Assembly (NCBI GenBank): GCA_029055345.1
Contig: JAIDDJ010000023.1
Location: forward strand, 29,353-93,352
Direction of reading: 5' to 3'
Length of the DNA stretch: 64,000 bases
From: Muribaculaceae bacterium
Lineage (GTDB): Bacteria > Bacteroidota > Bacteroidia > Bacteroidales > Muribaculaceae
Position numbers and translations under genes: made by a program. Positions 46,207-64,000 of the stretch are shown here, in pieces. How positions within the stretch are numbered: the first letter of the stretch is position 1; the number at the start of each line of letters is the position of its first letter. A model generated the notes under the pieces. The model saw only the letters and a list, made by a program, of their open reading frames with translations. It did no database searches and was not told where the DNA came from.

Positions 46207-48555
46207 TCAGAACGGGTAACCGATGGAGAAATGGAAAGCATGGTCGCGTCCCCACTTTGGATGAAACAGAGGCCAGGGCTCCTCACCTACCGCCGGGTTG
46301 TGAGCCTTCATTCCCAAATCTAAACGTATGAGGAAATAATTGAAGTCAAGACGTATACCAAGCCCGTATGCAGCAGCGAGCTCCTTATAGAAAGAATTGA
46401 ACTTAAACCTGCCATAGGGCTGGGTTTCATAGTTTCGTATTGTCCAGATATTCCCTAAATCCACAAAAAGCCCGGTCTCTATCACCCAGAACAGTTTCAG
46501 GCGATATTCAGCGCTTAGATTAAGTCTGATATCCCCACACTGATACATGAAATCGCTTACCGAATTTCTACCCGGGAATCTGCCCGGACCGAGTGTCCTA
46601 ACAGCCCAGCCGCGGACTCCGTTGGCTCCGCCGCCGTAGAAACGTTTTTCGAAAGGAAGCACATAGCTGTTTCCGTAAGGAACCCCGACACCGAGTCCGA
46701 CGTAGCATGCCAGGGCGTTGCGCCTGTCGAACGAATGCAGATAAGAGAAGTCCGCATCCGCTCGCACATATTCCGAGAAGCGTATACCGAACACCTTATA
46801 GGGGTCATCATGGAAATCCCTGTGTGGATATGCTGCCCGGCATATTCCGAAAAGCAGATTGCCGGCAGTCTCCGCCTGAACGCGCACCGTCACTACATTA
46901 CGATTGTTGGTAAGCCTGAAAGGCGATTCGCGCCTCTTGCTTGTATAATAATAGTTGAACCCGGCACGCATGATGAAATGGTCCTCATAGCTGTAACGCA
47001 GCAGCGGATTGTCGGGAGCTATCTCATCGATGAAGTTATATGTGCTTTTCGGCAGAAATACATAGTTGATGTCGATTGGCGTGACGGTATAGCGGAATCG
47101 TGCCGAATGCTCGCTCCATTTATAGCTCCAGCCGGCTGTGGAAATGATTCGCGTATATTCGGGCCGCTCCTGGTAATTGAGAGAGAGATGTATTTCAGTC
47201 GATGCGCGCACCTTGCGCTTGAAAGAATCAGAAAGAAAAGGAGCCTTGAACTTAGGAAAATTGATTGAAGATTCTATTCCATATTCCATGAACCGGTTAT
47301 GGATAAATCCCTCGAGCTTGCCGTTGATAGCCTGATAGCTTCCTCGAAGTTTGAGAGTGAGCAGTTCGGAGCCCCGGCCAACATTTCTATGGGAATAGTT
47401 GACCGACGCCGCCACTCCGAGGTCTCCTTCTGAATTAGTGCCTTCGAGCTCGAGCGTAACGCTCTGTGAACGCCCCGGCGTCAGAAGGATATATGCATCG
47501 ACAAGTCCGATGTCACCCAGCCGCCCGGCAGGAATCATTCTTACCTGCGCCATTTTTATGATGGATAACCTTCCGAAAGCTGAATAAGTGTTTTCCACAT
47601 CCCTCTGACGGAAAATCGCCCCCGTGCGGAGATAAACATTGTCATAAACGACCGATGGCCTAAGATAAGGCTTCGGGCCGTTGAGAATAATAAGATCCTT
47701 ATATTTCACGGTGTCGGATGAAGCCCAGGAATTAGGATCGGCCTCCGGAGAGCCATTGAAGTCAGTAATCACCACAATCTTTCTGACAATATATTTGTTA
47801 TGGGTGAGGACTTCCGGTGTCGAGGAAGATCGCTGATATGGAGGATTGACGATCATGGTCAAGTCAACATCATACACACCCTCGGTGGTATCGGCATTGA
47901 AAGTAATATATTCCTTAGAGAAGGCCCAATAACCACGATTGCGCATCCTGTTTGCAATCCATTCTCTTTGTGTTTCAAGCACTGAACGGTCAAGGATATT
48001 GCCGGGCTTCACGATAAATCTTACGGAATCCCGCATTATCAGTTTCCGGATGGAGTCATCCGGAAACTGATAATTTATAGAGTTTATCACATGCGGGCGC
48101 CCCGGATAAAGCTTGAAACCGAGATCAATTTTCCGATGGATAGAATCGGGTTGTCTTTCCACCATCACTTGAGAATGGAGAAATCCGGCATTGTTCATCG
48201 CCGCAACCAGCTGGGCCGAATCGGAGACAGTGGCATTCTCATCATAAATGACGGGAGCCTCTCCAAGGCGGCGCATCCACTTGTTCCACCAGTTTGTAGA
48301 ATCCTGCCCGCTCATATTATAGACGCCGAGTCGCAAGCGCGAAATATGAAGAAATCGGTTGTTGGGTCTCTGTCTCACATAAGTCATCATCGAAGAGGAA
48401 GAAAGAGTCCCGGTGGAATCGTTGACTGCAATCCTTACGTTATCGAGCAACAGGCTACCCTGAGGGACATGACGCGTCGGAGAGCAAGAGCACAGAACCG
48501 CTAAAAGCGGCACTATGGCCCATGACCAACTATATTTCCATCTTCTTACTTTCAT
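46207..48555 (-). CDS. TamL-like Omp85-family outer-membrane lipoprotein
   Basis: Lipobox VLCSCSPTRHVPQGSLLLDNVRI; KRFYGGGANGVRGWAVRTLGPG Omp85 motif. Confidence 0.86.
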   Translation of the reverse strand: MKVRRWKYSWSWAIVPLLAVLCSCSPTRHVPQGSLLLDNVRIAVNDSTGTLSSSSMMTYVRQRPNNRFLHISRLRLGVYNMSGQDSTNWWNKWMRRLGEAPVIYDENATVSDSAQLVAAMNNAGFLHSQVMVERQPDSIHRKIDLGFKLYPGRPHVINSINYQFPDDSIRKLIMRDSVRFIVKPGNILDRSVLETQREWIANRMRNRGYWAFSKEYITFNADTTEGVYDVDLTMIVNPPYQRSSSTPEVLTHNKYIVRKIVVITDFNGSPEADPNSWASSDTVKYKDLIILNGPKPYLRPSVVYDNVYLRTGAIFRQRDVENTYSAFGRLSIIKMAQVRMIPAGRLGDIGLVDAYILLTPGRSQSVTLELEGTNSEGDLGVAASVNYSHRNVGRGSELLTLKLRGSYQAINGKLEGFIHNRFMEYGIESSINFPKFKAPFLSDSFKRKVRASTEIHLSLNYQERPEYTRIISTAGWSYKWSEHSARFRYTVTPIDINYVFLPKSTYNFIDEIAPDNPLLRYSYEDHFIMRAGFNYYYTSKRRESPFRLTNNRNVVTVRVQAETAGNLLFGICRAAYPHRDFHDDPYKVFGIRFSEYVRADADFSYLHSFDRRNALACYVGLGVGVPYGNSYVLPFEKRFYGGGANGVRGWAVRTLGPGRFPGRNSVSDFMYQCGDIRLNLSAEYRLKLFWVIETGLFVDLGNIWTIRNYETQPYGRFKFNSFYKELAAAYGLGIRLDFNYFLIRLDLGMKAHNPAVGEEPWPLFHPKWGRDHAFHFSIGYPF

Positions 48556-49880
48556 TTCTCTTTTTTCCCGAATTCAGGATTTATATGCAGGGGGAGGCAG
48601 ACCAGGAATGTAACAATGCAACAAATCATCACCCACCAGAAGAAATTGACGTAACCCGACGGACCGGTAGCACTCCAGATGTTGAAGCGGCTAAGGAAAT
48701 CGTGAATCCAACCGGCAGCCATACCCGGAAGCATCATTCCCAGAGCCATAAAAGCCGTGCAGAAAGCATAGTGAGAGGTTTTGCTCGGTCCCTGGCTGAA
48801 ATAGATTAGATAAAGCATGAACGCGGTGAATCCGAATCCATAACCGAACTGCTCGATAGCGATAGCCGAACATATCAGGAAGAAATTCTCCGGCTGCCAC
48901 ATGGCGAGGAAACAATAGACAAGACAGGGCAGCGTAAGACTCAAAGCCATCGGCCACAACCACTTCTTCAGGCCACCGCGTGATATTGCGATACCTCCGA
49001 GGACGCCACCGGCAAGTAAAGCCACCACTCCGACAGTTCCATTCACAAAACCGACCTGAGTGGTGGAAAGCCCGAGCCCTCCATCAGCAATGGAAGCTTT
49101 AAGAAACGGTTGAACGAGCTTTATACACATTGCTTCAGGAAGCCTGTAGAGGAGCATAAAAAGCAATGCTGTGCCGACATATGGCTTGCGGAAGAAAGTG
49201 ACGAAAGTCATTGCGAAATCGCGGAGGATTGTGCGCGAAGTGACCCCCTCAACCGGATGGTCATCGGCAGGACGAGGCATTGCATATATATGATATATGC
49301 CCGCGAAAAGGAAGAACACCGAAAGGACCGTGAAGACAATGCTCCAGGCCGATGCTATGGTCTCACAAGTGGATTCCAGATATCCCGCGAGCATCACGAG
49401 CCCACCCTGTCCGATAACGCTTGCAACCCGATAGAATGTGGAGCGGACTCCTACAAAGGCAGCCTGGTCATGATCAGAAAGAGCGAGCATATAATAACCG
49501 TCGGCCGCGATGTCATGAGTGGCCGAGAGGAAAGCAAGAATCCAGAAACAGACAAGAGTAGAGGCGAAAAACATCGAAGTGGGCAGAAGGAAAGCCACGG
49601 AGCCCAAGGCTACGGCCATAAGAAGCTGCATTGCGATGGTCCATAGGCGTTTAGTCTTAAATAAGTCTACAAACGGGCTCCAGAATGGTTTTATAACCCA
49701 AGGGAGATATAGCCATCCCGTATAGAATGTCATTTCGGCGAGACCAACCCCCATATTAGTATACATAAGTACTGTCAGCACGTTCACTGCGAAATAAGGG
49801 AGTCCTTCGGCAATATATACGGTCGGAATCCAAGCCCATGGACGTCCGGAAAACCTCCTTGAATCAATTTCTTTATTCAT
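48552..49880 (-). CDS. MFS transporter, AmpG-like
   Basis: IPTVYIAEGLPYFAVNVLTVLMYTNMGVGLAEMTFYTGWLYLPWVIKPFWSPFVD. Confidence 0.82.
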   Translation of the reverse strand: MNKEIDSRRFSGRPWAWIPTVYIAEGLPYFAVNVLTVLMYTNMGVGLAEMTFYTGWLYLPWVIKPFWSPFVDLFKTKRLWTIAMQLLMAVALGSVAFLLPTSMFFASTLVCFWILAFLSATHDIAADGYYMLALSDHDQAAFVGVRSTFYRVASVIGQGGLVMLAGYLESTCETIASAWSIVFTVLSVFFLFAGIYHIYAMPRPADDHPVEGVTSRTILRDFAMTFVTFFRKPYVGTALLFMLLYRLPEAMCIKLVQPFLKASIADGGLGLSTTQVGFVNGTVGVVALLAGGVLGGIAISRGGLKKWLWPMALSLTLPCLVYCFLAMWQPENFFLICSAIAIEQFGYGFGFTAFMLYLIYFSQGPSKTSHYAFCTAFMALGMMLPGMAAGWIHDFLSRFNIWSATGPSGYVNFFWWVMICCIVTFLVCLPLHINPEFGKKEK

Positions 49881-49902
49881 GAATCATTTCTTAAGTAAAA
49901 GG

Positions 49903-51024
49903 TCATAAGAGCTCAAGATTAGTGCCCGGGTAATAGAAATCAAGAATCTCCCGGAATTGCCTACCTTCGAAAGCCATTCTTGCTGCTCCAATCTGGCACA
50001 ATCCTACGCCATGCCCCCACCCTCTGCCTTCAAGCAGGAATCCTTCCCTCTCATCCATAATGTCAAACCGGGAGCTGTATAGGCAATCATCGGTCAGAAG
50101 ACGGCGGATAGCGAGTTCCTTCCCTATCTCAACACTACCGTCCGCTCCGGATATAATTATCCTCACCGCTCTGCCGGAGGGACCCCGACGGCTGACTTCA
50201 AGTGTTTTTACTGTTCCGACATCGATTCCATATCTTGATTTGACTCTATCGCGAAGCCATTGCCTGCCGACTCGCCTACTCCATTGATAAAAATCTTGTG
50301 TAGCTGCGTCATAATTCTTAAGGGCTGCAGAAAGAAACTCATTCCTGGAAGATTCAGTCATATCGGAAAGGTTGCACCATGAATCTTCCTTTGACACCAG
50401 ATAATCGTAATCCTTATCCGCCCAGCATGATGAGAAAATTTCAGTTCGGCCCCCGCAACACTTCGAGAACCGGGCATCGGCAATCTGACCCTCCCGATCC
50501 TTAATGACAAGACCTCGGGTGGCTTCGACTGCTTTGAGAGCTGAAGAAGGAATCACTTCCGGCAGGCCCTGAAACCTTTGGCAATGGTCATCGCTGCAGA
50601 CATCAAAACCCACATGGGAATCGGCCTCCTCCCACCCTATATGAAGTGCAGCCTCATCAACTCTTCCGGACTCAGACTTATGCGAATCACCCAGAATCTT
50701 TCTCATAGCCCAGCTCCGGGATATAACGGCATGGGCCTTGAGAAACTCAAGCGGTGCAGAGGGGTTCATCTCACTTGAAATCACCGAAAGGACATAGGCC
50801 TCCAAAGGGACCGTCATGACAGACTGAATCGGAGGCCGGGACGATTCAAGAAGTTCAAGTTCCCCCGGAACGAAAGCCGTGATGGTCTTCCGCCAGTGGA
50901 AGCCATATCCAATCAGTAGGTTTTGAATCATAAATCCTGACATACCATTCCTGACACAAGCTTCTGCCTGCGGCAACCCGTCGGTGAGCAATCCTACCCT
51001 GATAACTTTTTCAGCCTCACTCAT
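49903..51024 (-). CDS. SpoIID/LytB domain-containing protein
   Basis: PLEAYVLSVISSEMNPSAPLEFLKAHAVISRSWAM; GRGWGHGVGLCQIGAARMA. Confidence 0.9.
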   Translation of the reverse strand: MSEAEKVIRVGLLTDGLPQAEACVRNGMSGFMIQNLLIGYGFHWRKTITAFVPGELELLESSRPPIQSVMTVPLEAYVLSVISSEMNPSAPLEFLKAHAVISRSWAMRKILGDSHKSESGRVDEAALHIGWEEADSHVGFDVCSDDHCQRFQGLPEVIPSSALKAVEATRGLVIKDREGQIADARFSKCCGGRTEIFSSCWADKDYDYLVSKEDSWCNLSDMTESSRNEFLSAALKNYDAATQDFYQWSRRVGRQWLRDRVKSRYGIDVGTVKTLEVSRRGPSGRAVRIIISGADGSVEIGKELAIRRLLTDDCLYSSRFDIMDEREGFLLEGRGWGHGVGLCQIGAARMAFEGRQFREILDFYYPGTNLELL

Positions 51025-51027
51025 GAT

Positions 51028-51963
51028 TCAAACTTTATACCGGGATTTTATTTCCGATGGTAGACCATCTGCAAAAGCCACCTCGGCGTAAATCCGGCGG
51101 ATATCTTCATCGGTAAGAGCCATAAAATCCTCCTCTCGCGGAGTAATTATTATTCCAGCCATGTCAATCGCGCCCGGACTGACGATACGCTTAAGCGGCT
51201 CTTCCGAAAAATAACAATCCGGCCTGTGAGCCCTTCGCGGAATGATTACTATTCTCAACAACCCTGACTCATCAATCCACATAAAGGAGTTGAGAAGTCC
51301 GGTATCAGGGAGTCCTGTTACGGCATCCATACCAAATGCATTCCTACATTTGGCGAGAGCTTCCATACCGGTTTTATCAGGGGTGATGACAGCACTCAGA
51401 AAACTGAAAGGAAGGTCGAGTCTGAAATCTTCGGAGCTCATCCATCCGGGTCTTGATGCAGGATGACATTCTTCTGTAAGACGGATTAAAGGGAGTTCCG
51501 ATTTAAGGACAGCCTGCGCATGCTGATGGTCGGGAGCGGATGCGCCGGCGCGGGCGCCGTTGTAAAATATCACGAGATCCGGGGCAGCCTCCGCCATAGC
51601 TGCCATTTCCAGAGGTATGTCAGCCTGCGGAGTGTGGGATGGGTTAACGATAGTGAAATGAACCGGAAGGATAGGAAACGGATTGACAAGCAGTTGCCAG
51701 CCGGCAACCCAACTGAGTGTATTCTGACAATCAGGCCTGTTGGATTCACATAGGAAACATGGGCGCTCAGCAATAGAACGCGCATCGACATTTGCGGCGG
51801 AAGAACGTATTCTCGCCGGATTAAGCTGCACGGCACAATGGAAATCGCCGAGAATGAGATTACGGCGGCGCACCAATCTGATGTTTGAAAAATTGGCGGC
51901 AGCTTCAGGCCACTGAGTCAACTGATCTTCTATCAGGTCATTAATAAGGGAGGTCGTCAACAT
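51028..51963 (-). CDS. DUF4922 / HIT-like nucleotidyltransferase-type protein
   Basis: [30 protein letters not shown] carries a HxHxQ-type motif. ATG at 51963 preferred. Confidence 0.72.
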
Positions 51964-53443
51964 CCCCGTCAAAGTTCTCTCCATCATAATCGTCATCGTC
52001 ATCCTCATCATCGAGATCATCGGGATACCCGTCATAATCAACATCCCTAAGGTCGATGAAAGGAGGAATGAAACCTCCGATAGCGGCAAAATGATGATTG
52101 CCGCGAGCTCCGCGTTCGTCATCAAAGTTCTGCCGGACGCGTGCCATCAGTTCAAACGAGCGCACACAATCCTTATAGTTATTATTGGCATTGATTTTCT
52201 CAATTGAAAGCGAAGCATCGGAATTGCCTTCCCAACGGCGACACAGGTAGATTGAGGTGAAAATACGGCCAATCCCATAGTCACGAGATATACGCAAAGC
52301 CATTGCATAATCCTCGCCATAGCTCACATTGGGAAAAAGAAAACGCCTTGCCACAGGAGTGAAAAATGCACGGGGAGCACCAAGACCATTTATTCGCAGA
52401 GCGTTGTTCGGACCGTTTAAATCCGTCCATTCATCATGGCTGATAAGCCCCGGAGGGATTATATTCCCCTCAAAGTCCACGAGCGTATAGCTTCCGATCA
52501 CCATGCCATAATTACCTGAGCGGAATTTTTCAACAATCAAAGCCACAGTATCGGGCGAAGCATATATATCATCCGAATCAAGCTGGACGGAAAAGCGACC
52601 GCAGCGGTAGTCAAGAATCGCTTTATTCCAGCAGCCCCCTATGCCGAGTCTTTCGTCATCCTCCGCTTCGATAAGGACAAGCCGGGGGTCATTTACTGAG
52701 CGCAGGAGATCTCGCGTGCCATCGGTAGAGCCATTGTCGACCACAATGACGTTCATCGGGAAATCGGTCTTTTGCGACAATGCGGAATTGACGGCATCCA
52801 TTATGGTACGGGCCCTGTTTCTGACCGGAATAATCACCGAAGCCTCCACCGGGAAGGATTCAGAATCATATCTCACAGACTCTCGCTTTGCCGGATTGAC
52901 AAGCCCGTCGATATCTTTCAGATGATCAGTCAGGGCTTTCTCCATCTGTATCTGATATTCACGGTTGCGTGGGTCGACATAGTCATGCTGCATCTTGCCG
53001 CTCTCTCTCAAATCGATTCGCTCGGCCGTATACAGATATTCCGGAATCATGGCAATCATCTTCCCCATGGTCACCCGGAGCCGGAGCGCATACCAACCGC
53101 CGTCGAGCATTTTAGATTCTTCCTCCATATTCTCCGAAGCAGCGAGCACATCGGCCGCATTCAGAAGGACAAGAGGTCCGAAATCAAAATCATCCCTGAC
53201 CGACCCCGGCTGATAGTCTATAACCGGATGATTGGCAACCGAGCCGTCAGGGAGACGATCGCGATAATAACAATAGGTAAGAGTGGAATCGACATCTGAA
53301 GCCAATTCTGTGAGACGATGAATGCACCCTTCATCGAGCGTCACCTCTCGTGGTCCGATCTTGAGGAGGACGAATTGCTGGAGCGGCGTTCTGAAAATCT
53401 CCTCCCGGAGGGCCATTATATTTTTAAAGGGAATAATATCCAT
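51941..53443 (-). CDS. Family 2 glycosyltransferase with acidic C-terminal tail
   Basis: [57 protein letters not shown]. Confidence 0.87.
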
Positions 53444-53495
53444 GAAAACGTATAGGGTTATATGATCGTGTAGTAGAGAATTATATGTTAAGGAA

Positions 53496-56400
53496 TCAGT
53501 CGCGACTCAGCGAGGAGACGACACCTTTTACGAAAGCATTGCGTTCAGCCGGATCTGTCATTGACTCGATTGGAATTGTCAGCACGGCTACTTTGCCGCG
53601 ATGATTACTTACAATATGTCCGGCACGGCAACCGGAGTCAAAGGAGAGTATTTCGGTAGTGGGGACATCATCGGCGCCTACAATGACATCGGGCTGCTCC
53701 ACAATGTAGTGCCGGTCATTAAGATTGGCGGAATATTTGATCTGCTTCCCGGAACGCGAATCGCGCACGCGGCCGGTCTTTCTTGAATCCGCACCATATG
53801 AACCTATTCCGAGAACCTCAGCAGCGAATTTTCTGTCGGCAGCCGACGACCTCATATCGAGCAGGTCGGAAGCTACATATTGCCCGCTCACGATAAGATC
53901 TCCACCTTTTTCAACATATGAGCGAAGTGCCTTCTGAAGAGAAACCGGGAAAGCGGCAAATTTAATACCGCTCTTACCCTTGCCGACAAGAGTCTTTTTC
54001 TGCTTGCCGACTATCAGGTCAACGAGAGAATAGTCGGAAAGTTTCACGTCACCCTCCTCCACGGCTCCGGCTGAAGCTGAGACGAAGCCGAGACCCGATG
54101 CGGTTAGTGCATTGCCATGAACCACCGCGAAATCAAATGTATTGCCGGCTATCACATCGCCAACGAAATTTCTGCCGCTCACGCCGAAATTATTTCCTGC
54201 GGCGCGACGGAACTCAGTCTGATGGCCCGTAAATGATATATCCTTCTTATATGGCACTCCGAAATCGGCCTCCGAGTCAAATCCCGTATTACCATCGGCA
54301 TTGTGGTGTCCCGGAGCTGAAATCCGGGTGAACCCGTTGACAATTAGGGCAGGTTTTGTATTACCCGGGGCTTCCCGCAGCGCAAGCGTCTCCGAAGGGA
54401 ATGAAAGGCCGCCGTCGTTGGCCGCAATTACGTAGAAAGAATGAATATCGTTGTCGGCAACTTTGAGATCGAAATGCGTTGATTTGGTCTCCCCTATCTT
54501 ATGGAAACCGAGATCACTTCCCGACCGCTCCATAATGATATATTTCTCAGGCACGGCTGTCGGTTCGAGTTTATCGTGAGTTGCTTTCCACGAGAGCCTG
54601 TAATATTTCGGTTTGGTGCGCTTGATGCTGAAATTGTGGACAGGTAGGGGCTGGATCACAAGTTTCCGGTCCTTGCGCTCGGCGAGGAAGCGGGCAATGC
54701 CTTTGTATATGGCTCGACCAACTGTGAACCGGAAATTGGGGTCGAGACCAAGTTCCATATCGGCATAATTCTGATGACTCATCACCTCGATGAGGGATGT
54801 CGGTACTTCAGGCACTCGGGCTTCGACATATGACTTATCCCACATTGATCGTCGCGTCCAGTTCGGTTCCCACTCGCGACGGATATCATTGGTGATTTGC
54901 TGCATTACCATGTCGGTAAGCATACGTGAATTGATGCGAGGAGTGCCATCTGCATAAGAAGCTCCGTTCTGGGTGAAATATATACCGAGAGTTCCGACAT
55001 AAGAATCATTGTCGCGTTTGCCGGCATCGGAATGGAGCGCAAAGGCGGCGTCTACCGGAATATTGAGTCCCTCCGCTTTAGGGAGCACCCTCGAGCCGCC
55101 GGCAAGGTAATTCACCCAGTGTCCGCGGCTTGTATAATCATCCTTATAGTCGTTCGAACCGTGGAAAGGAGAGTAAACATATTCCGGGAAACCGGCCCAA
55201 TGGAGCCAATATCTGGCCCCTTCGACAAACCGGGGCATACCGGAGGTGGCGAACCTCGGAGCCGGGCCCTTCCTGTCGGACGACTGGGGAGTGGCGGATG
55301 CTTGCTTTGTAGCCTGTGTCTGGTCGGCCGTGTCGGAGATATCGTCTGACTCCTCATCATCGATAGCTTCCTCGTCATCCGGCTCGGCGGCTTCCTCGTC
55401 ATCGGCATCAAGCTCATCCTCCGGAGTCGACGGGTCATAATATATATCGCTTCTGCGCGAGCTGCGGGCTATATTACCCATGCCGCCCCCTATTTTGACG
55501 GCATCTGCAGTTACGACCGTGCCGGGCGCACCATCCGTGAGGTTGGAAAGTGTGATTACCGGTTCGGAGTCGGAGTATCCGGCTTCGAGAGGGAACGTTC
55601 CGAGATAAATCCATGTGCTTCCTCCCATTGTCTGGTTTACCTTGAATTCCTTCGAGCCGCCGGAATAGTTGACGGTGTACCGCGCATCTGTCGTAGAGTT
55701 AGGGAGTGTCTTGTAGCTGACATACACTGCATATTCTCCATCCTGAGGAATATCGGCATACCATGCTGCCAGCGAGGGTGTGCCCCCCTTCTGAGTCTCT
55801 ACCTGTCGGTATGTTCCGTTCTCGAACGGATTTTCGGTGTCGCGGAAATCAGGCAGGTCATAGATGAAGCCGTCAAATTCGCCGGTCTGCCATTTATTCT
55901 TACCGCTCATCTCCTTATAGTAAGGTTGCGAGAAGATCCGGCCTCCATCGTTTGTGTCGTTGTCGACGATAACTTCGTGCTTATTGGTGTCGCGTTCGCG
56001 GGGTAACATCACATACGCGCCGGCGTTTTCCAGCATCGGCACCACATAAGGCAGGATATAGCCCATGGTGAAGACATCCTCCGCCGTTTCAAACAGGAAT
56101 GGCCGTTGCCATGTCCATGAGCCCTCCTTGAAATAGCGGCCATGCGAATGCCAGAGGGCGATAATATCATTATCCATTCCTTTTGAAGCCACCACGAGTG
56201 GATGGACCTCTTCCACGAAGGCCGGATTTTTCCGGTATTTCTCCGGAAGTTTATCCACTTTGTGGATGTAATAAGCAAGCGATTTCTTCCCGACATTGAG
56301 ATCCACTCTGTAATGAGAAATTGAATCCGGAAGAGCCTTTTTCACCATCCGGGAAAGCGTATCGATAAATTCCCGGGAAATCGGCATGTAGGTAAAGTTT

Positions 56401-56924
56401 TCGTTAAGACCGATTCGGGCAACATGGCGCCCCTTGTCGGGCGTCACACTGTTGACACGAAGCCCACCGGGATTCAAATGCGCCGGTATCTGGCGGATAA
56501 GGTTTTCATTAACCGAAAGTGTTAGCGAGTCGTTCTGAGCCACCTCCTTCGGTTCTTCCTTATAAACAGAGCGCACCACGTTGCGCTGCTTCTTAGTTGA
56601 CCTCGAAGCCCTTGACGATTTAGAATTTTTTGAACGCGAAGATTTACGGGACGATTGCTTTGAAGATTTATTTCCCTTTTTACCTTTCTTACTGCCGGCA
56701 GTTTTTGATGATTTAGAAGACTTAGAAGATTTCGAGCCTGAAGTTTTGGATGATTTTGAAGACTTTGATGACTTGGCCGTTTTTCCGGACTTGGAAGATT
56801 TAGAAGATTTAGCCGATTGGGAAGTCTTGGCCTTGGCACCTTTTGAAAATGCCGTTTCGGGCGTAATTACGGCGACCGAAAGAATAATGCAAACAACGAG
56901 ATAAATTAAATTCTTAAACTTCAT
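53496..56924 (-). CDS. Large secreted amidase/golvesin-like (xanthan-lyase-type) protein
   Basis: Signal peptide from [13 protein letters not shown]-rich region; ALHSDAG and [17 protein letters not shown] amidase-like motifs; golvesin-like [38 protein letters not shown] at 56924 preferred. Confidence 0.75.
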
Positions 56925-56987
56925 AATAAGACAGATAGATTCAGCCGAGCGTTTCTGGGAAGGAAGAATCCGCCGGCGGTTGAACAG

Positions 56988-57019
56988 CAAAGTTACAAAA
57001 AAAAAGAGACCGCAGCAAA
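56988..57019 (-). promoter_or_regulatory. Putative promoter for the 53496-56924 gene
   Basis: Minus strand TTTG (57016-57019), N20, TAACTTTG (56988-56995). Confidence 0.55.
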
Positions 57020-57028
57020 CTGCGGTCT
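57007..57028 (-). terminator. Intrinsic terminator
   Basis: agaccgcag-caaa-ctgcggtct with a long T-run on the minus strand. Confidence 0.85.
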
Positions 57029-57205
57029 ATAATAAAGGTTAAATGAAAAATTAATTATGGGTGAGAGCCATAAAGAAAGAGGCGAATCTCAAACATTAGT
57101 TACTATGTTCAAACTCGTTGGCACAACAGTATGATATTTGCACCGAAGGAAAAAGCAAATGTTAGGCCCCATCCACTAACATCGAATTTATCTTATCAAT
57201 AAATT

Positions 57206-57694
57206 TTATTTTTGTTCAGACCCTTCTTGCGTAAGCTTCATAGAATTGTATAAGTTTCCGGATTGCAGGATAATTTCAAACTCTCTGACATCCGATGATG
57301 GATTTTCCTTTATATTAAAAGTAGCCTGATATGATTCCGGTCTTACGCAAATACCCTTAATATCGCCCCACTCACCGGAAAAGACCATTTCACCTGATTC
57401 TACATACCAATCATAGTCATCCCAATAGCCAATACCATCGACATCCACCCGATTTATCCACGCCCACGAATTAATACCTACGGTTGTAAATGTAAATGTT
57501 GCTCCTTGAGCCGGGATCGTACCAATATATGAATAGGGTAATTCTTGCTTGAATAAGGATATGCCTTCTGCTTCAAGCTCAATTACTGAATACGGTACAT
57601 CACCTAACTTATCTGACGAATCATCATCTTTTTTACACCCTGCGAGAGTTACGATGCACAGTAGTGTTGTCATTAAGATTAATTTAAATTTCAT
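57206..57694 (-). CDS. Small BACON-like lipoprotein (paralog 1, divergent)
   Basis: Lipobox TLAGCKKDDD; C-terminal NPSSDVREFEIILQSGNLYNSMKLTQEG. Confidence 0.75.
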   Translation of the reverse strand: MKFKLILMTTLLCIVTLAGCKKDDDSSDKLGDVPYSVIELEAEGISLFKQELPYSYIGTIPAQGATFTFTTVGINSWAWINRVDVDGIGYWDDYDWYVESGEMVFSGEWGDIKGICVRPESYQATFNIKENPSSDVREFEIILQSGNLYNSMKLTQEGSEQK

Positions 57695-57781
57695 ACTTTA
57701 ATGATTTATAATTATTTCCTCCTTCTATAATCTTATACTATCAGGTACACACATTTTATTATGACCCATAGAACGACAAGA

Positions 57782-57808
57782 GGGCGTTTTGCGCTCTGAA
57801 AAACGCCC
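57782..57808 (-). terminator. Hairpin downstream of the 57832-58332 gene
   Basis: gggcgtttt/aaaacgccc; counterpart of the hairpin at 63346. Confidence 0.6.
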
Positions 57809-57831
57809 ATTATGAGTCATTGGTCTGAATT

Positions 57832-58332
57832 TTATAGATTTAGATCAGCTCCATCTTGTGTCAGTTTAAGATCATTGAATAGATTGCCTGCTTCAAGTGA
57901 AATTATAAATTCACGTGGGGCGGACGATGGGTTCTTCTCTATATGAAAACTTATTTGATACTCATCCTTCTTTCCATTTTCTTCTATCGCTTTCCCTTCT
58001 ATAATTCCCCAGTCTCCGGAAAAATAATGTATACTTCTCTTTAACTCATCCTCATCCCAGTAGAAATCCATGCCATCAACCATAACACCTGCCACCCATG
58101 CACCGGCATTAATGCCTACCGGAATGATTTTAAAATTCGCTCCTTCAGATGGTATGGTTCCGGTATAAATACCATTTTTTTCATTAAAAGATAATTCTAT
58201 TCCATTGACTTCAAGATCAATGATCTTATAAGTCGTAAGACCTATTAAATCCTGACTCACACGATCATTCGAACAAGCTACAAACAGGAATCCCAATAGT
58301 GTCGCTAAAAGGTATATGAATTTAGTCTTCAT
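57832..58332 (-). CDS. Small BACON-like lipoprotein (paralog 2)
   Basis: Lipobox LFVACSND; NPSSAPREFIISLEAGNLFNDLKLTQDG. Confidence 0.78.
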   Translation of the reverse strand: MKTKFIYLLATLLGFLFVACSNDRVSQDLIGLTTYKIIDLEVNGIELSFNEKNGIYTGTIPSEGANFKIIPVGINAGAWVAGVMVDGMDFYWDEDELKRSIHYFSGDWGIIEGKAIEENGKKDEYQISFHIEKNPSSAPREFIISLEAGNLFNDLKLTQDGADLNL

Positions 58333-58356
58333 ATGCTATTACGGTTAAATAATTAA

Positions 58357-59286
58357 TTAGTTTTTTAATATTTTATGAAAAGAACCATCATTTTTTACGA
58401 GGATATAGATGCCGGGATTGGCAATTTCTCGGATAGCAATGCCATCAAGGGTGTAAATCTGTGATGAATTATCACATTCATTATGAATGGCTTCGACACC
58501 ATCATCGGGCACATCTTCATAATAGAAATAAATGAATAATTCGGGGGCATTATTATCGTTGGCTTGAATAAGATAGCCATCTTCATCAAATACGTAATCA
58601 CCGACAACAACATTACCATCACTATCATTCCACGAAGAAGGAAACTGAGCGGGAGGATCCCCTAAGAATCCGGCTTGAGCGAGGATTTCCAACCCATCGA
58701 GTTGAACTCCCCACATAGACTCAAGCAACTTTATTCCATGAAGATTATAGTCGCCCGAATACTCATATTCTCGCCAGTCAATTTCATCCGGATAAAGGTC
58801 ATTGTAGTACTCGAACTTTATCAGATTACCGGCATCAAAACATAAATTGGTATATATATTACCTGAGTCTTCATATTGGATAAAGGAGTTAAGTCTGTTT
58901 TGAGCGTATTCAAAAAAATATGTACAAGCGCCAAATGATTGTTCTATTCGTTCAGCTATATCAACCCTTCCATCATCATCCAGAGTAGCAATATAGTTCA
59001 CATCATACCTTTCATCCGGAATATTGACGTTAACAGTGAGGTAGCCATCTTCAATATTAGTGTAATCAATACTCGTTGTCATGTTCGAATAATCTATTTT
59101 GAATAACCTGCCATCCTCATCATATGAAATATTACATCCGATATCTTCAATATAATAATTATCAAAATACCCCCTTAATATAGTAGATTTAAGCCGCCTA
59201 TCCTTCCCGTATACACATGGAACGAACATCAAAAGAACGAGTAAAACAATAAATTTCTTCATATGAACTAAATTAATTGCTTTCAC
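58357..59286 (-). CDS. Secreted protein with T9SS-type A-like C-terminal tail
   Basis: Signal peptide; C-terminus SSQIYTLDGIAIREIANPGIYILVKNDGSFHKILKN fits the sorting-domain pattern. Confidence 0.68.
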   Translation of the reverse strand: MKAINLVHMKKFIVLLVLLMFVPCVYGKDRRLKSTILRGYFDNYYIEDIGCNISYDEDGRLFKIDYSNMTTSIDYTNIEDGYLTVNVNIPDERYDVNYIATLDDDGRVDIAERIEQSFGACTYFFEYAQNRLNSFIQYEDSGNIYTNLCFDAGNLIKFEYYNDLYPDEIDWREYEYSGDYNLHGIKLLESMWGVQLDGLEILAQAGFLGDPPAQFPSSWNDSDGNVVVGDYVFDEDGYLIQANDNNAPELFIYFYYEDVPDDGVEAIHNECDNSSQIYTLDGIAIREIANPGIYILVKNDGSFHKILKN

Positions 59287-59376
59287 TTGCTAACTTTAAC
59301 AAGTGAAAGCAAAAATAAATATAAATTATTAGATTTCAAAATAATTAATAAAAATAATCAATCGTTATTTTCACAG

Positions 59377-60711
59377 CTATTTCCTTATCCCGGAAATTGT
59401 CTTGAGATTATACTGATAATATGAAGAAGTTCCACTCCGAGTTTCATCCTCGTCATTTTCAGAATTTATTAAATAATCTGATAAAGCGGCTGCTGTGTCG
59501 AATACACCACTGAGGAAATAACCATCACTTAAACCGCCCCATCCCCAGTTACATAGAGTATACCACTGATTTTCTATTCGGGAAGATATAAAGTAACCAT
59601 CGTCTGAAAACCATTTAATTTCCCTAAATCGTTTTAACATTCCATGAATTAACCAAGCATGACCCTCTGAAAGATTGGTATAAATAGTCCATCCTAAAAA
59701 CTTTATTTCTTTTTTCTTACAATACCCACTTACAATTACTGGATAATAACTTAAAATTTCATCTATTACATTTTCTGTATTATACTTCTTTATAATGCCA
59801 GAGGACCTGTATCCAAAAGAATTAAGAGTTCTTGGAATACTTTCTATCCGTGCTCCACTTTCTTCTATACCATAATTCATATTCAAGTTTGTAGGTAATC
59901 CCAGTTGATACATTAACCGTGCTATGTCAAATTGCGCCAATTCGCTACATTGACTACCTTTAGGGAATTTTGTCATTTTGTCCCAGTGAAATGATTCTCC
60001 ATTATATGAAGAAGGATATTTATAAACAGCCATCAACTGCGCAACAGCAGTAGCTACACATCCAGTGGGAGCTTTCTTACCATCAATAGTTGGACAAAAT
60101 TTATTATATGGATTTAGTTGGCCCCATTGAACGGGACAAAGTGGAGAATCTGGATATTTTTTATTATCCCATTCTCCGTATTCGTAGTAGCCACTACCTA
60201 TTATAGAGGGGGTAGAGAAATCGATAGACCATTTAAATTTTTCGGTAGATATGATATCACCAATGTAAGGAGGTAACGCAGTTAAAAAACTTGCTAAGCT
60301 TGGTTCTTTAATTGTATCTATAGGAGCGAGATTGCCTTCGGTTACATAAGCAATCAAAGACGGAATTCTGTTATCACCTGACATAACAGCAAATCCCTTG
60401 TTATCCTCGAAATTTATAACATAAGTGAGTAAGGAGTCTGATTTTTGTAGCTTAGTATTTTCATATGGAATCTTTAGTGAATATGAATAAGATACTTTCC
60501 TTTCCATGGTATCAGTAGCTCGAGAAGAAGAATTACGGAGTTGTCCAATAATTCCATTGAGTTCTTCTTGTGCTTGATTTAATGTAATTAAATACGGATT
60601 GTCTGCGAAATCTTGTTTAGTCGCTTCATACATTAAATCTACACTTTCATTACTGCATGAGATTAATAAGACATAGCTTATTAAAGATAGTAAGATTTTA
60701 CGAGTCTTCAT
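59377..60711 (-). CDS. C10 (streptopain-like) cysteine peptidase
   Basis: Lipobox LISCSNES; GKKAPTGCVATAVAQLMAVYKYP catalytic Cys region; EGHAWLIHGM His region; CNWGWGGLSDGYF. Confidence 0.9.
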   Translation of the reverse strand: MKTRKILLSLISYVLLISCSNESVDLMYEATKQDFADNPYLITLNQAQEELNGIIGQLRNSSSRATDTMERKVSYSYSLKIPYENTKLQKSDSLLTYVINFEDNKGFAVMSGDNRIPSLIAYVTEGNLAPIDTIKEPSLASFLTALPPYIGDIISTEKFKWSIDFSTPSIIGSGYYEYGEWDNKKYPDSPLCPVQWGQLNPYNKFCPTIDGKKAPTGCVATAVAQLMAVYKYPSSYNGESFHWDKMTKFPKGSQCSELAQFDIARLMYQLGLPTNLNMNYGIEESGARIESIPRTLNSFGYRSSGIIKKYNTENVIDEILSYYPVIVSGYCKKKEIKFLGWTIYTNLSEGHAWLIHGMLKRFREIKWFSDDGYFISSRIENQWYTLCNWGWGGLSDGYFLSGVFDTAAALSDYLINSENDEDETRSGTSSYYQYNLKTISGIRK

Positions 60712-60751
60712 AATAAATTTAATTATAAATATTTAAATATAAGAAAAATTT

Positions 60752-61135
60752 TTATTTTTGTTCTCCTGAGATGATACCGGAATAGGTATTGAGCAGATCA
60801 GTAGAAATTTCGAACTCCGCAGGGAAGGTGATATCTTCCACTTCGAAATCAAATGGTTCCGCAGTATCGAATGACTCAGACAAACCTGGGATACCGGTTT
60901 GATTCAGGAACTCAATATAAGCCTTTCCTTCCGATTTCAAGAATTCAATATGCAGAATATTCTCTTCAAAGTAAGCCTCTATACGCTGATGAGAAGGAAT
61001 CCGAGGACGACCAGTCGAAGAATTTCTGGATATCTTGATTACAATTTGACGTGATTCCCCTTGAGAGCCGGAATCTGCACAAACCTTCAATGGAAGGATA
61101 AGAGTTAATAAAGACAAATAAAAGGCTAATTTCAT
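60752..61135 (-). CDS. DUF3244-like small secreted protein
   Basis: Signal peptide; 127 aa; LNTYSGIISGEQK end; directly upstream of the C10 peptidase. Confidence 0.7.
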   Translation of the reverse strand: MKLAFYLSLLTLILPLKVCADSGSQGESRQIVIKISRNSSTGRPRIPSHQRIEAYFEENILHIEFLKSEGKAYIEFLNQTGIPGLSESFDTAEPFDFEVEDITFPAEFEISTDLLNTYSGIISGEQK

Positions 61136-61388
61136 GGTTTTAAAGTTTTGTGCAAATTTAATAAATTAGTTAGAAGGCAACCCAAAATATGGCTTCTCAA
61201 ATATCTATCATCCCTGATTTTATATATCTATAAAACAAATATTTATAGAATAAAAAAATTAAAAATATCTATCATGCCTTAGAAAAAGTAAAAATCAAGA
61301 AATAATTAATAAAATTTTCGTTCTAAATATGATTCTTTTTTGGATTTCCATTATATTTGCATTCCAATTTATAGATAAATCAATTTCT

Positions 61389-63302
61389 ATGAAAACCAAC
61401 ATATATATTTTAGCCTTGTCATTGATACTATTAATGGGTTGCGAATCAAAATTCGAGCCATCTATAAAAGAGGCCGAAGCATACTTAAAAGAATATCCGG
61501 ATTCTGTCAACAAAATAAGTATGCCTGAAAGGGCATTATCGATTCTTGAAGGTATTGATTCAACAAATTTATCTAAAGATAATAGAACTAAAATCGCTAT
61601 TCTCAAAGCATATGCTAAATATAAGTTATATAAACCCTATGATATCGATCTTATTGACTCGTGTCGGGAACAAATAATTTCGATTTCAAATGAGGATCCA
61701 TCTTTATATTACAAGTATCTTTATCTAAAGGCATTTCATTTTTTTGAAGATGCAAAATATCCTGAAGCGATGAACTACGCTATGAAGGGATTTCAGCTTT
61801 CCAATAAATATAATGATCACTTATGGACTGCTAAGAATTCACAGATGATAGGAGATATACTTTGCAGAAACTGCAATTGGCCAGGAGCCCTACAACAAGA
61901 CTCGGTTACAATTGAAGAGTATTTAAAAGCAGGACGTTTACGTGATGCAAATTTCGCCAAAGTGGACTATTTAATGAATCTTTCAAGTAGTGGTGACATT
62001 CAAAATGCTCAAGAACAATTTCTGGCAAATAATGAGGCATGGATTGGAACAAACGACAGTGCATTAATATCTTATAATTTAACCAGATATGTATTGTGTT
62101 TAATTGATAATGGAATGATCTCCGACGCAAAAAGCCTACTTGCAGAAAGTGATAATTTTAATCCACACATAGCATTCCAATCACAATATTATAATGCACT
62201 ATTTGAAATTTCATTACTTGATAATAATATTCCTAAGGCACAAGCATATCTTGATTCCATTGAAAAGGATGATGATGAAGGAATCGGAGAAGTAAGATAT
62301 CTTGATGCTAAATCAAAATATCTTAAAAAGAAAGGTGACTACAAAAGGGCCCTCGAAGTAACAGACAGTATCATCCTTATATCAAATGAAAAGATAAAGG
62401 CTCTCCTTACTCAATCGGTAGTGGCTGCGCAGCGAGATTTTTATGATGATGTAGCTAAAGAAGAGGCTCTAAAAGCGGAAAATAACCGTAATACCTTGAT
62501 TATCGTTTCAGTCGGCGCGTTAATTTTGATACTCCTGGCATTATTTTATTACAGATACCATATCAAGTTGAAAAATATTGAGCTACAAAATAAAATAAAT
62601 CAAATATATAATCTGAGTCAGAATCTCGACAGGCTGACATACGAGAACTCCGGCTTGAACGAATCTGTCCATTCTCAAGAGGAGGCGCTAAATAAACTAA
62701 CTTCCGAGTTGGAACTGAACCTTCAGAATATCGAAAGGATGAAGGAGGAAATCAAGCAAAAGGAGGAAGCTGATAAATACTATCGCGAATTAATTTCCAA
62801 CGAGAAGGGTGATGCGACCGGTCCTTATGACATGACAACTATACGCAAGGAGTTGGAAAAACTACAAATCAAGGAGAAGGAAAATAATGAACGTATCAGG
62901 GATTTATATTCAAGACGGTTGGATTACTTCAATAAATTTTCCAATATTTATCTGACGAAGAAGGATTCTCCCAAAGTTAAGAAAACTCTTGTCTCCGACT
63001 TTGAAGAAATGCTTGAAGATATGAAGAAAACTATTACGTCCGGGGAAGTCGAGCAACAAGTGAATCTATTCTTTGACGATGTCATAGCCGAACTGAGACA
63101 GAAATGCAATACGCTCTCGGAAAAAGACCTCCTGATGACAACACTAATTTATGCCGGATTCATGCCTCGGTATATAGCGGAAGTGTGCGGATATTCCCCG
63201 AACTATTTTTATGTAAAGAAAAACCGCATTATAAAGAAGATATTGAATGCGATGCCTGACAGCGAAGCCTCACCATACATAGATTTCCTTAAAGACGCAT
63301 AA
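61389..63302 (+). CDS. Membrane-anchored TPR regulator with C-terminal HTH
   Basis: Lipobox LLMGCESK; TPR-like repeats; TM TLIIVSVGALILILLALFYY; coiled coil; HTH LSEKDLLMTTLIYAGFMPRYIAEVCGYSPNYFYVKKNRIIKKIL. A TATATTTG box at 61352-61359 lies inside the track's extended ORF, so the ATG at 61389 is preferred. Confidence 0.82.
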   Translation: MKTNIYILALSLILLMGCESKFEPSIKEAEAYLKEYPDSVNKISMPERALSILEGIDSTNLSKDNRTKIAILKAYAKYKLYKPYDIDLIDSCREQIISISNEDPSLYYKYLYLKAFHFFEDAKYPEAMNYAMKGFQLSNKYNDHLWTAKNSQMIGDILCRNCNWPGALQQDSVTIEEYLKAGRLRDANFAKVDYLMNLSSSGDIQNAQEQFLANNEAWIGTNDSALISYNLTRYVLCLIDNGMISDAKSLLAESDNFNPHIAFQSQYYNALFEISLLDNNIPKAQAYLDSIEKDDDEGIGEVRYLDAKSKYLKKKGDYKRALEVTDSIILISNEKIKALLTQSVVAAQRDFYDDVAKEEALKAENNRNTLIIVSVGALILILLALFYYRYHIKLKNIELQNKINQIYNLSQNLDRLTYENSGLNESVHSQEEALNKLTSELELNLQNIERMKEEIKQKEEADKYYRELISNEKGDATGPYDMTTIRKELEKLQIKEKENNERIRDLYSRRLDYFNKFSNIYLTKKDSPKVKKTLVSDFEEMLEDMKKTITSGEVEQQVNLFFDDVIAELRQKCNTLSEKDLLMTTLIYAGFMPRYIAEVCGYSPNYFYVKKNRIIKKILNAMPDSEASPYIDFLKDA

Positions 63303-63345
63303 TTCCCAAATCATAGCGTCCGAAATGACCCATAGAACGACAAAT

Positions 63346-63372
63346 GGGCGTTTTTCGTTCTGAAAGACGCCC
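63346..63372 (-). terminator. Hairpin downstream of the 63395-63895 gene (duplicated copy)
   Basis: gggcgtttttc/gaaagacgccc. Confidence 0.6.
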
Positions 63373-63394
63373 ATTATGAGTCAATGGTCTGAAT

Positions 63395-63895
63395 TTATGG
63401 TTTTATATCGGCTCCATCTTGTGTCAGTTTAAGATCATTGGATAGATTGCCTGCTTCAAGTGAAATTATAAATTCACGTGGGGCGGACGATGGGTTCTTC
63501 TCGATATGAAAACTTATTTGATACTCACCCTTCTTTCCATTTTCTTCTATCGCTTTCCCTTCAATAATTCCCCAGTCTCCGGAAAAATATTCTATATCTT
63601 TCTTAAACTCATCCTCATCCCACCAGAAATACGTGCCGTCTACCTCGACATAAGTCGGCCATGCACCGGCATTATGGCCTACCGGAATGATTTTAAAATT
63701 CGCTCCTTCAGATGGTATGGTCCCGGTATACATACCTTTTTTTTCATTAAAAGATAATTCTATTCCATCGGCTTCAAGTTCAATGATTTTATAAGGCGTA
63801 TTACCTATTAAATCATAACTCTCACTATCATTCGAACAAGCAACAAACAGGAATCCCATTATTGTCGCTAAAAGGAATGTTAATTTAGTCTTCAT
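63395..63895 (-). CDS. Small BACON-like lipoprotein (paralog 3, near-copy of 57832-58332)
   Basis: About 134/166 residues identical to the 57832-58332 protein by hand alignment. Confidence 0.8.
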   Translation of the reverse strand: MKTKLTFLLATIMGFLFVACSNDSESYDLIGNTPYKIIELEADGIELSFNEKKGMYTGTIPSEGANFKIIPVGHNAGAWPTYVEVDGTYFWWDEDEFKKDIEYFSGDWGIIEGKAIEENGKKGEYQISFHIEKNPSSAPREFIISLEAGNLSNDLKLTQDGADIKP

Positions 63896-63915
63896 ATGCT
63901 ATTACGGTTAAATAA

Positions 63916-64000
63916 TTAATTACTTTTTAATATTTTATGAAAAGAACCATCATTTTTTACGAGGATATAGATGCCGGGATTGGCAATTTCTCGGATAGCA
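63916..64000 (-). CDS. 3' end of a second T9SS-tail protein (truncated by the window)
   Basis: Reads AIREIANPGIYILVKNDGSFHKILKSN*, matching the end of the 58357-59286 protein. Confidence 0.75.
   Translation of the reverse strand, partial: AIREIANPGIYILVKNDGSFHKILKSN

Follow-up and report, generated by a model that had tools for sequence, protein, structure and literature searches.

In this Bacteroidales genome, gdhA and a Golvesin/amidase gene are probably separated by an AT-rich island that carries at least two tandem copies of a protease operon; one of these would be intact and the other decayed, and a single regulator gene would be positioned between them. The window, i.e., the entire stretch of 64,000 nucleotides analyzed here, corresponds to positions 29353-93352 of contig C16 in an 83%-complete assembly of 78 contigs. 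In the proposed arrangement the copies would lie on the same strand, each in the order promoter with paired motif, DUF3244-like putative inhibitor, C10 cysteine protease, DUF4595-like protein, lipoprotein and hairpin. Unit 1, the copy nearer to the Golvesin gene, is intact; in unit 2, the copy nearer to gdhA, internal deletions would have gutted the DUF3244 and C10 genes, and the lipoprotein gene together with the 3' end, or more, of the DUF4595 gene would have been retained. One divergent TPR regulator would be located between the two units. Directly observed were the repeat, the break of the contig, the genes present at either contig end, the paired motif and the synteny in relatives.

The island is bordered on its left by a Golvesin_C/amidase-like gene (53496-56990, minus strand), assigned by Pfam and synteny, and it stands out by a GC content of 0.31-0.38 in 57000-64000 versus 0.46-0.55 in the flank, while the end of contig C53 beyond gdhA is likewise AT-rich. 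No tRNA that could represent an insertion site was found in 40000-64000, and no mobility gene was seen among the open reading frames of 57206-64000.

The duplication is read most directly from a repeat within the window. An end-to-end alignment of 57761-58438 with 63325-64000 gave 91% identity over 678 columns, and a BLAST search of the unit against the whole genome returned the second copy at 63325 with E=1.9e-275; this repeat is not due to chance. Three repeat families were resolved, i.e., 57761-57832/63325-63396 (92%, spacing 5564), 57831-58130/63394-63693 (90%, spacing 5563) and 58362-58438/63924-64000 (100%, spacing 5562), in agreement with an earlier reading of the sequence alone, which had described a block recurring at an offset of about 5,563 bp. 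The sequences to the left of 57761 and of 63325 are unrelated, and the left edge of homology is therefore sharp in both copies, as that sequence-only reading had also proposed; its placement of the second copy 23 bp past the regulator stop (63302) was reproduced at 22-23 nt. Each copy opens on an operon-end hairpin on the minus strand, at 57761-57831 in unit 1 (kept in both copies; z -3.3 versus shuffles) and at 63325-63394 in unit 2 (identified by the repeat match; z -3.7 versus shuffles).

Since contig C16 comprises 93352 bases, position 64000 is its end, and the 3' end of a second DUF4595-like gene (63920-64000, minus strand), recognized by a suffix match, is cut there. The longest exact suffix of the window that matches the first copy measures exactly 77 nt and corresponds to 58362-58438, a strandless k-mer which the suffix match and the contig-end comparison identify as the left border of the exact repeat. 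When 64 contig ends were compared with contigs C40-C78 and both ends of C16, 22 of them shared 21 nt or more of exact sequence at their terminus, the longest match being exactly 77 nt in 13 of these 22, so that 77 nt is the commonest contig-end overlap among the ends tested; in two contig pairs, C50/C16 and C58/C68, the ends overlap by this length. Outside the window, the left end of C16 and the right end of C50 overlap by exactly 77 nt, and C16 is therefore extendable leftward into C50. From these overlaps we infer an assembler based on a de Bruijn graph with k=77, of which they would be the signature; a literature search on such assembly overlap returned no paper. Given the 77-nt suffix match and the prevalence of this length, C16 appears to break off at the initial k-mer of an exact repeat starting at 58362, the assembly having halted because the second DUF4595 region equals the first for at least one k-mer. 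Beyond 64000, the true sequence most likely enters a duplicate of the DUF4595 gene.

A genome built from fragments with repeat-induced ends also invites the view that the locus is an assembly chimera of two strains with no true duplication. This is very improbable, as lipoproteins 1 and 2 (described below) differ at 9% of sites while both residing on one contig, the junction between the regulator and the second copy lies in unique sequence, and a second entry into the repeat k-mer needs a second copy; the relic unit on C53 constitutes independent evidence of duplication.

That relic was located through the genomic neighborhood of the island. Of the genomes sampled, G029 and G105 come closest when judged solely by gdhA identity (98%). 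In these two relatives, gdhA adjoins the Golvesin/amidase gene on the same strand at a distance of about 300 bp, and we refer to this present-day state as the empty site. In the genome under study, gdhA is located at the right end of C53 and the Golvesin gene on C16, and the residual flanks of both contigs match the G029 empty site in short stretches. The AmpG-to-Golvesin block (window 48552-56990) is oriented to gdhA in a further genome, G094, opposite to G029, G105 and, presumably, the present genome; the difference between G094 and the former two is an inversion within the genus.

Past gdhA, C53 carries a promoter, a DUF3244 relic and a C10 relic in the order and on the strand seen in unit 1. 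The promoter region is about 60% alike that of unit 1, the DUF3244 relic (87% identical over 171 nt) has lost its middle and contains both a frameshift and an in-frame stop, and the C10 relic retains a recognisable C-terminal part, the rest being gutted. To judge from these lesions, the second C10 and DUF3244 genes are pseudogenes and the second protease is dead. C53 ends shortly past the C10 stop, heading towards the expected position of DUF4595, while C16 ends inside the DUF4595 gene, heading towards the expected position of C10. Synteny and homology thus point to a join between C16 and C53, the simplest form of which would span a gap of about 0.9 kb. No direct k-mer join was found, the C53 end sharing no 77-mer with the window; since the two ends lack a common k-mer, a further missing piece should lie between them, representing a third copy, strain variation or low coverage.

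It could be argued that the duplication is confined to the lipoprotein and the extreme 3' end of DUF4595, that homology stops just past 64000, and that the relic on C53 stems from a separate, earlier copying of the operon. Just 77 nt of the second DUF4595 gene are seen, C53 lacks k-mer overlap with the window, and the relic is more diverged (about 60-87%) than the lipoprotein copies (91%), all of which would fit such a limited event. However, a stop on the first k-mer of an exact repeat implies a repeat of at least 77 nt and most likely a longer one, and the C53 relic holds exactly those genes that are absent from unit 2, in the correct order and on the correct strand, and extends past the C10 stop towards DUF4595; the limited duplication is consequently considered unlikely. 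As a sub-case of the tandem-operon interpretation, the array may comprise three or more units whose middle copies were collapsed or remained unbinned. The lack of a k-mer link between C53 and C16, the existence of lipoprotein 0 as a third, divergent paralogue and the recurrence of a 56-nt leader next to gdhA are consistent with such an array, but no other close relative of C10, DUF4595 or the lipoproteins is present in the recovered genome, and this larger array is regarded as rather doubtful. Searches of the recovered genome for the missing DUF4595 copy, other lipoproteins, other close C10 relatives and a second regulator returned only distant relatives beyond the locus.

The tandem-operon interpretation is thereby partly supported, and a duplicated unit larger than a short local repeat is supported by the sequences at both contig ends. 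The sequence-only reading had proposed that the entire set of lipoprotein, T9SS protein, C10 peptidase, DUF3244 and regulator was duplicated. The lipoprotein and the DUF4595 end are read directly in the second copy, and the C10 and DUF3244 relics on C53, which are colinear with unit 1 and lie behind the same promoter, would belong to that copy if the contigs are joined as suggested, but the second C10 and DUF3244 genes are relics, and no second regulator was found between the relic and gdhA or elsewhere in the recovered genome.

The intact protease gene of unit 1 (59377-60711, minus strand) encodes a C10 (streptopain-like) cysteine protease with an I69 propeptide, as indicated by Pfam, an alignment of relatives and a structure match. 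Both the catalytic domain (PF01640, 113.9 bits versus a cut-off of 26) and the propeptide (Inhibitor_I69, 48.2 bits versus 25) score above their cut-offs, and the label, which had also been given from the sequence alone, is firm. C218 (in TGCVATA) and H351 (in GHAW), which we take from knowledge of the family to be the catalytic residues, are invariant in four relatives. The neighboring small secreted protein (60752-61135, minus strand), a putative C10 inhibitor, is less easily classified. Its earlier DUF3244 label falls below the Pfam cut-off (15.3 bits versus 25), and a sequence comparison with solved structures returned no meaningful match; a fold search with its model (pLDDT 63), however, placed the DUF3244 structures 3d33 and 3sd2 near the top (probability 1.00, E about 0.02), which weakly backs the label.

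The gene at 58357-59286 (minus strand) had been described as bearing a T9SS tail. As a candidate T9SS cargo it was rejected, since no T9SS C-terminal sorting model in Pfam or NCBIfam matches the gene or its last 87 aa; it instead matches DUF4595 weakly, below the cut-off (28 bits versus 34.2), and is here termed a DUF4595-like secreted protein. Among the labels given in the cluster, DUF6377 likewise remained below its cut-off. Genes for small exported beta-proteins occur on the strand of the C10 gene both directly upstream (60752-61135) and further downstream (57832-58332), and the models of the DUF3244-like protein and the lipoprotein are all-beta after the signal peptide. By analogy with other C10 systems, the DUF3244-like protein and the lipoproteins are putative inhibitors or partners of the protease, which would be exported in zymogen form, anchored by lipid and carrying its own I69 propeptide, and be restrained or assisted in the envelope by these small proteins.

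The lipoprotein family is represented by three members in the recovered genome, all of which sit in the C10 cluster: lipoprotein 0 (57206-57694, 162 aa), lipoprotein 1 of unit 1 (57832-58332, 166 aa) and lipoprotein 2 of unit 2 (63395-63895, 166 aa), the last two being 81% identical and all three open reading frames lying on the minus strand. Lipoprotein 0 shares 43% identity with lipoprotein 2, and its intact open reading frame does not bear out the earlier suggestion that it is the remnant of an older unit. Its 56-nt leader (57707-57762, minus strand) recurs with 86% identity at C53 10898-10953, between gdhA and the relic unit. The BACON-like label that had been attached to these proteins was not sustained, as two of the three (lipoprotein 0 among them, at 15 bits) score 15-15.3 bits against a Pfam cut-off of 25 and the third does not match at all. 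The model of lipoprotein 2 (pLDDT 78), on the other hand, matches the lipocalin-like protein of Bacteroides thetaiotaomicron in fold (PDB 2mw1, Foldseek E 3e-7), with a weak profile match to the same entry (E 1.7e-4). Of the codon differences between lipoproteins 1 and 2, 32 are non-synonymous and 9 synonymous; dN (0.11) and dS (0.10) are about equal, and the changes are clustered in residues 71-105 with few in 106-140. For this one pair, such a pattern is compatible with relaxed or diversifying selection.

The divergent gene between the copies (61329-63302, plus strand), identified by Pfam and a genome search, encodes a regulator-like protein with TPR, transmembrane and coiled-coil regions; it is the only full-length regulator of its type in the recovered genome and has no match among solved structures. 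Within the intergenic region that separates it from the DUF3244-like gene lies a paired motif, AGGNNTGATAGA (61203-61279, minus strand), whose two occurrences start at 61279 and 61215, 64 nt apart, and are the only ones in the 64-kb window. The motif also occurs twice in C53, both times in the relic promoter and again with a spacing of 64 nt. In 2.03 Mb of sequence, the paired pattern is found in exactly two places, namely the intact and the relic promoter, while a control search of the same 2.03 Mb with the reversed pattern returned none. As the two promoters are homologous, this agreement is partly due to descent, and the motif was not found in the related loci L105-L109. The pair is a candidate operator for the divergent regulator, which may activate the operon through it. 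The locus offers a testable regulatory motif, the pair being limited to the intact and relic promoters.

A GTDB scan aimed at finding this array in a close relative yielded 19 loci, the best at about 40%. In related loci, single-copy cassettes are observed: L106 combines a relative of the regulator, a DUF3244-like gene and a C10 gene, while L105 contains a TPR protein, a small exported protein, a C10 protease and a lipoprotein of the family found in the window. In L109 (203-2024), the C10 gene is split into two open reading frames, apparently by a frameshift, and the lipoprotein that comes next, a member of this family, is intact; the two may represent another dead protease with a kept partner. 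In L108 (8001-12685), the genes after C10 encode a radical-SAM-like protein and several lipoproteins that share a CMYGTPY or similar motif. In the rest of the genus, the lipoprotein family is strongly matched only in G019 and more weakly in G010, in both cases next to a C10 gene; the weaker hits obtained in further genomes mostly belong to longer proteins.

Duplicated protease/inhibitor clusters with a dead paralogue are already known in Bacteroides, and the present locus belongs to that kind. In B. thetaiotaomicron, the btpB-btiB-btpC and btiZ-btpZ genes comprise three C10 genes and two small inhibitor-like genes, an organization explained by duplication, and BtpZ lacks the catalytic Cys (PMC3462683); BT2221, designated btiZ in that study, is annotated as DUF3244 elsewhere (PMC10434189). 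The present locus shares with btp/bti (PMC3462683) the clustered, duplicated C10 genes interleaved with small exported putative inhibitors, but its repeated unit also includes the DUF4595 and lipoprotein genes, its dead copy arose as a relic of deletions, and the copies have a TPR regulator between them. In B. fragilis, the C10 genes bfp1 and bfp4 are co-transcribed with small inhibitor-like bfi genes, lie on insertions in some strains, and two of the four C10 proteases are encoded on conjugative or phage-like elements (PMC2873492). These likewise place a C10 gene beside small inhibitor-like genes; however, they are single protease-inhibitor units, and no mobility gene was seen among the open reading frames of the present locus. 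Streptopain SpeB and interpain A (PDB 1pvj and 3bb7) share the C10 catalytic domain and propeptide, with low identity, other partners and a different genomic setting.

The position of the repeat at a contig end also warrants caution, as a finding at such a position can be shaped by the assembly graph; here the final exact match of 77 gives away the k-mer size and explains where the sequence stops. We infer both the regulatory and the inhibitory roles. The locus illustrates the duplication and decay of a protease/partner operon in the Bacteroidales. A tentative extension, considered possible and not probable, is that unit 2 is a retained partner-only operon, which lost its protease and DUF3244 genes by deletion but still has its regulated promoter and a diverged lipoprotein, with one regulator running both operons. 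If this were true, a single regulator would drive the protease operon together with an operon supplying an extra, variant partner.
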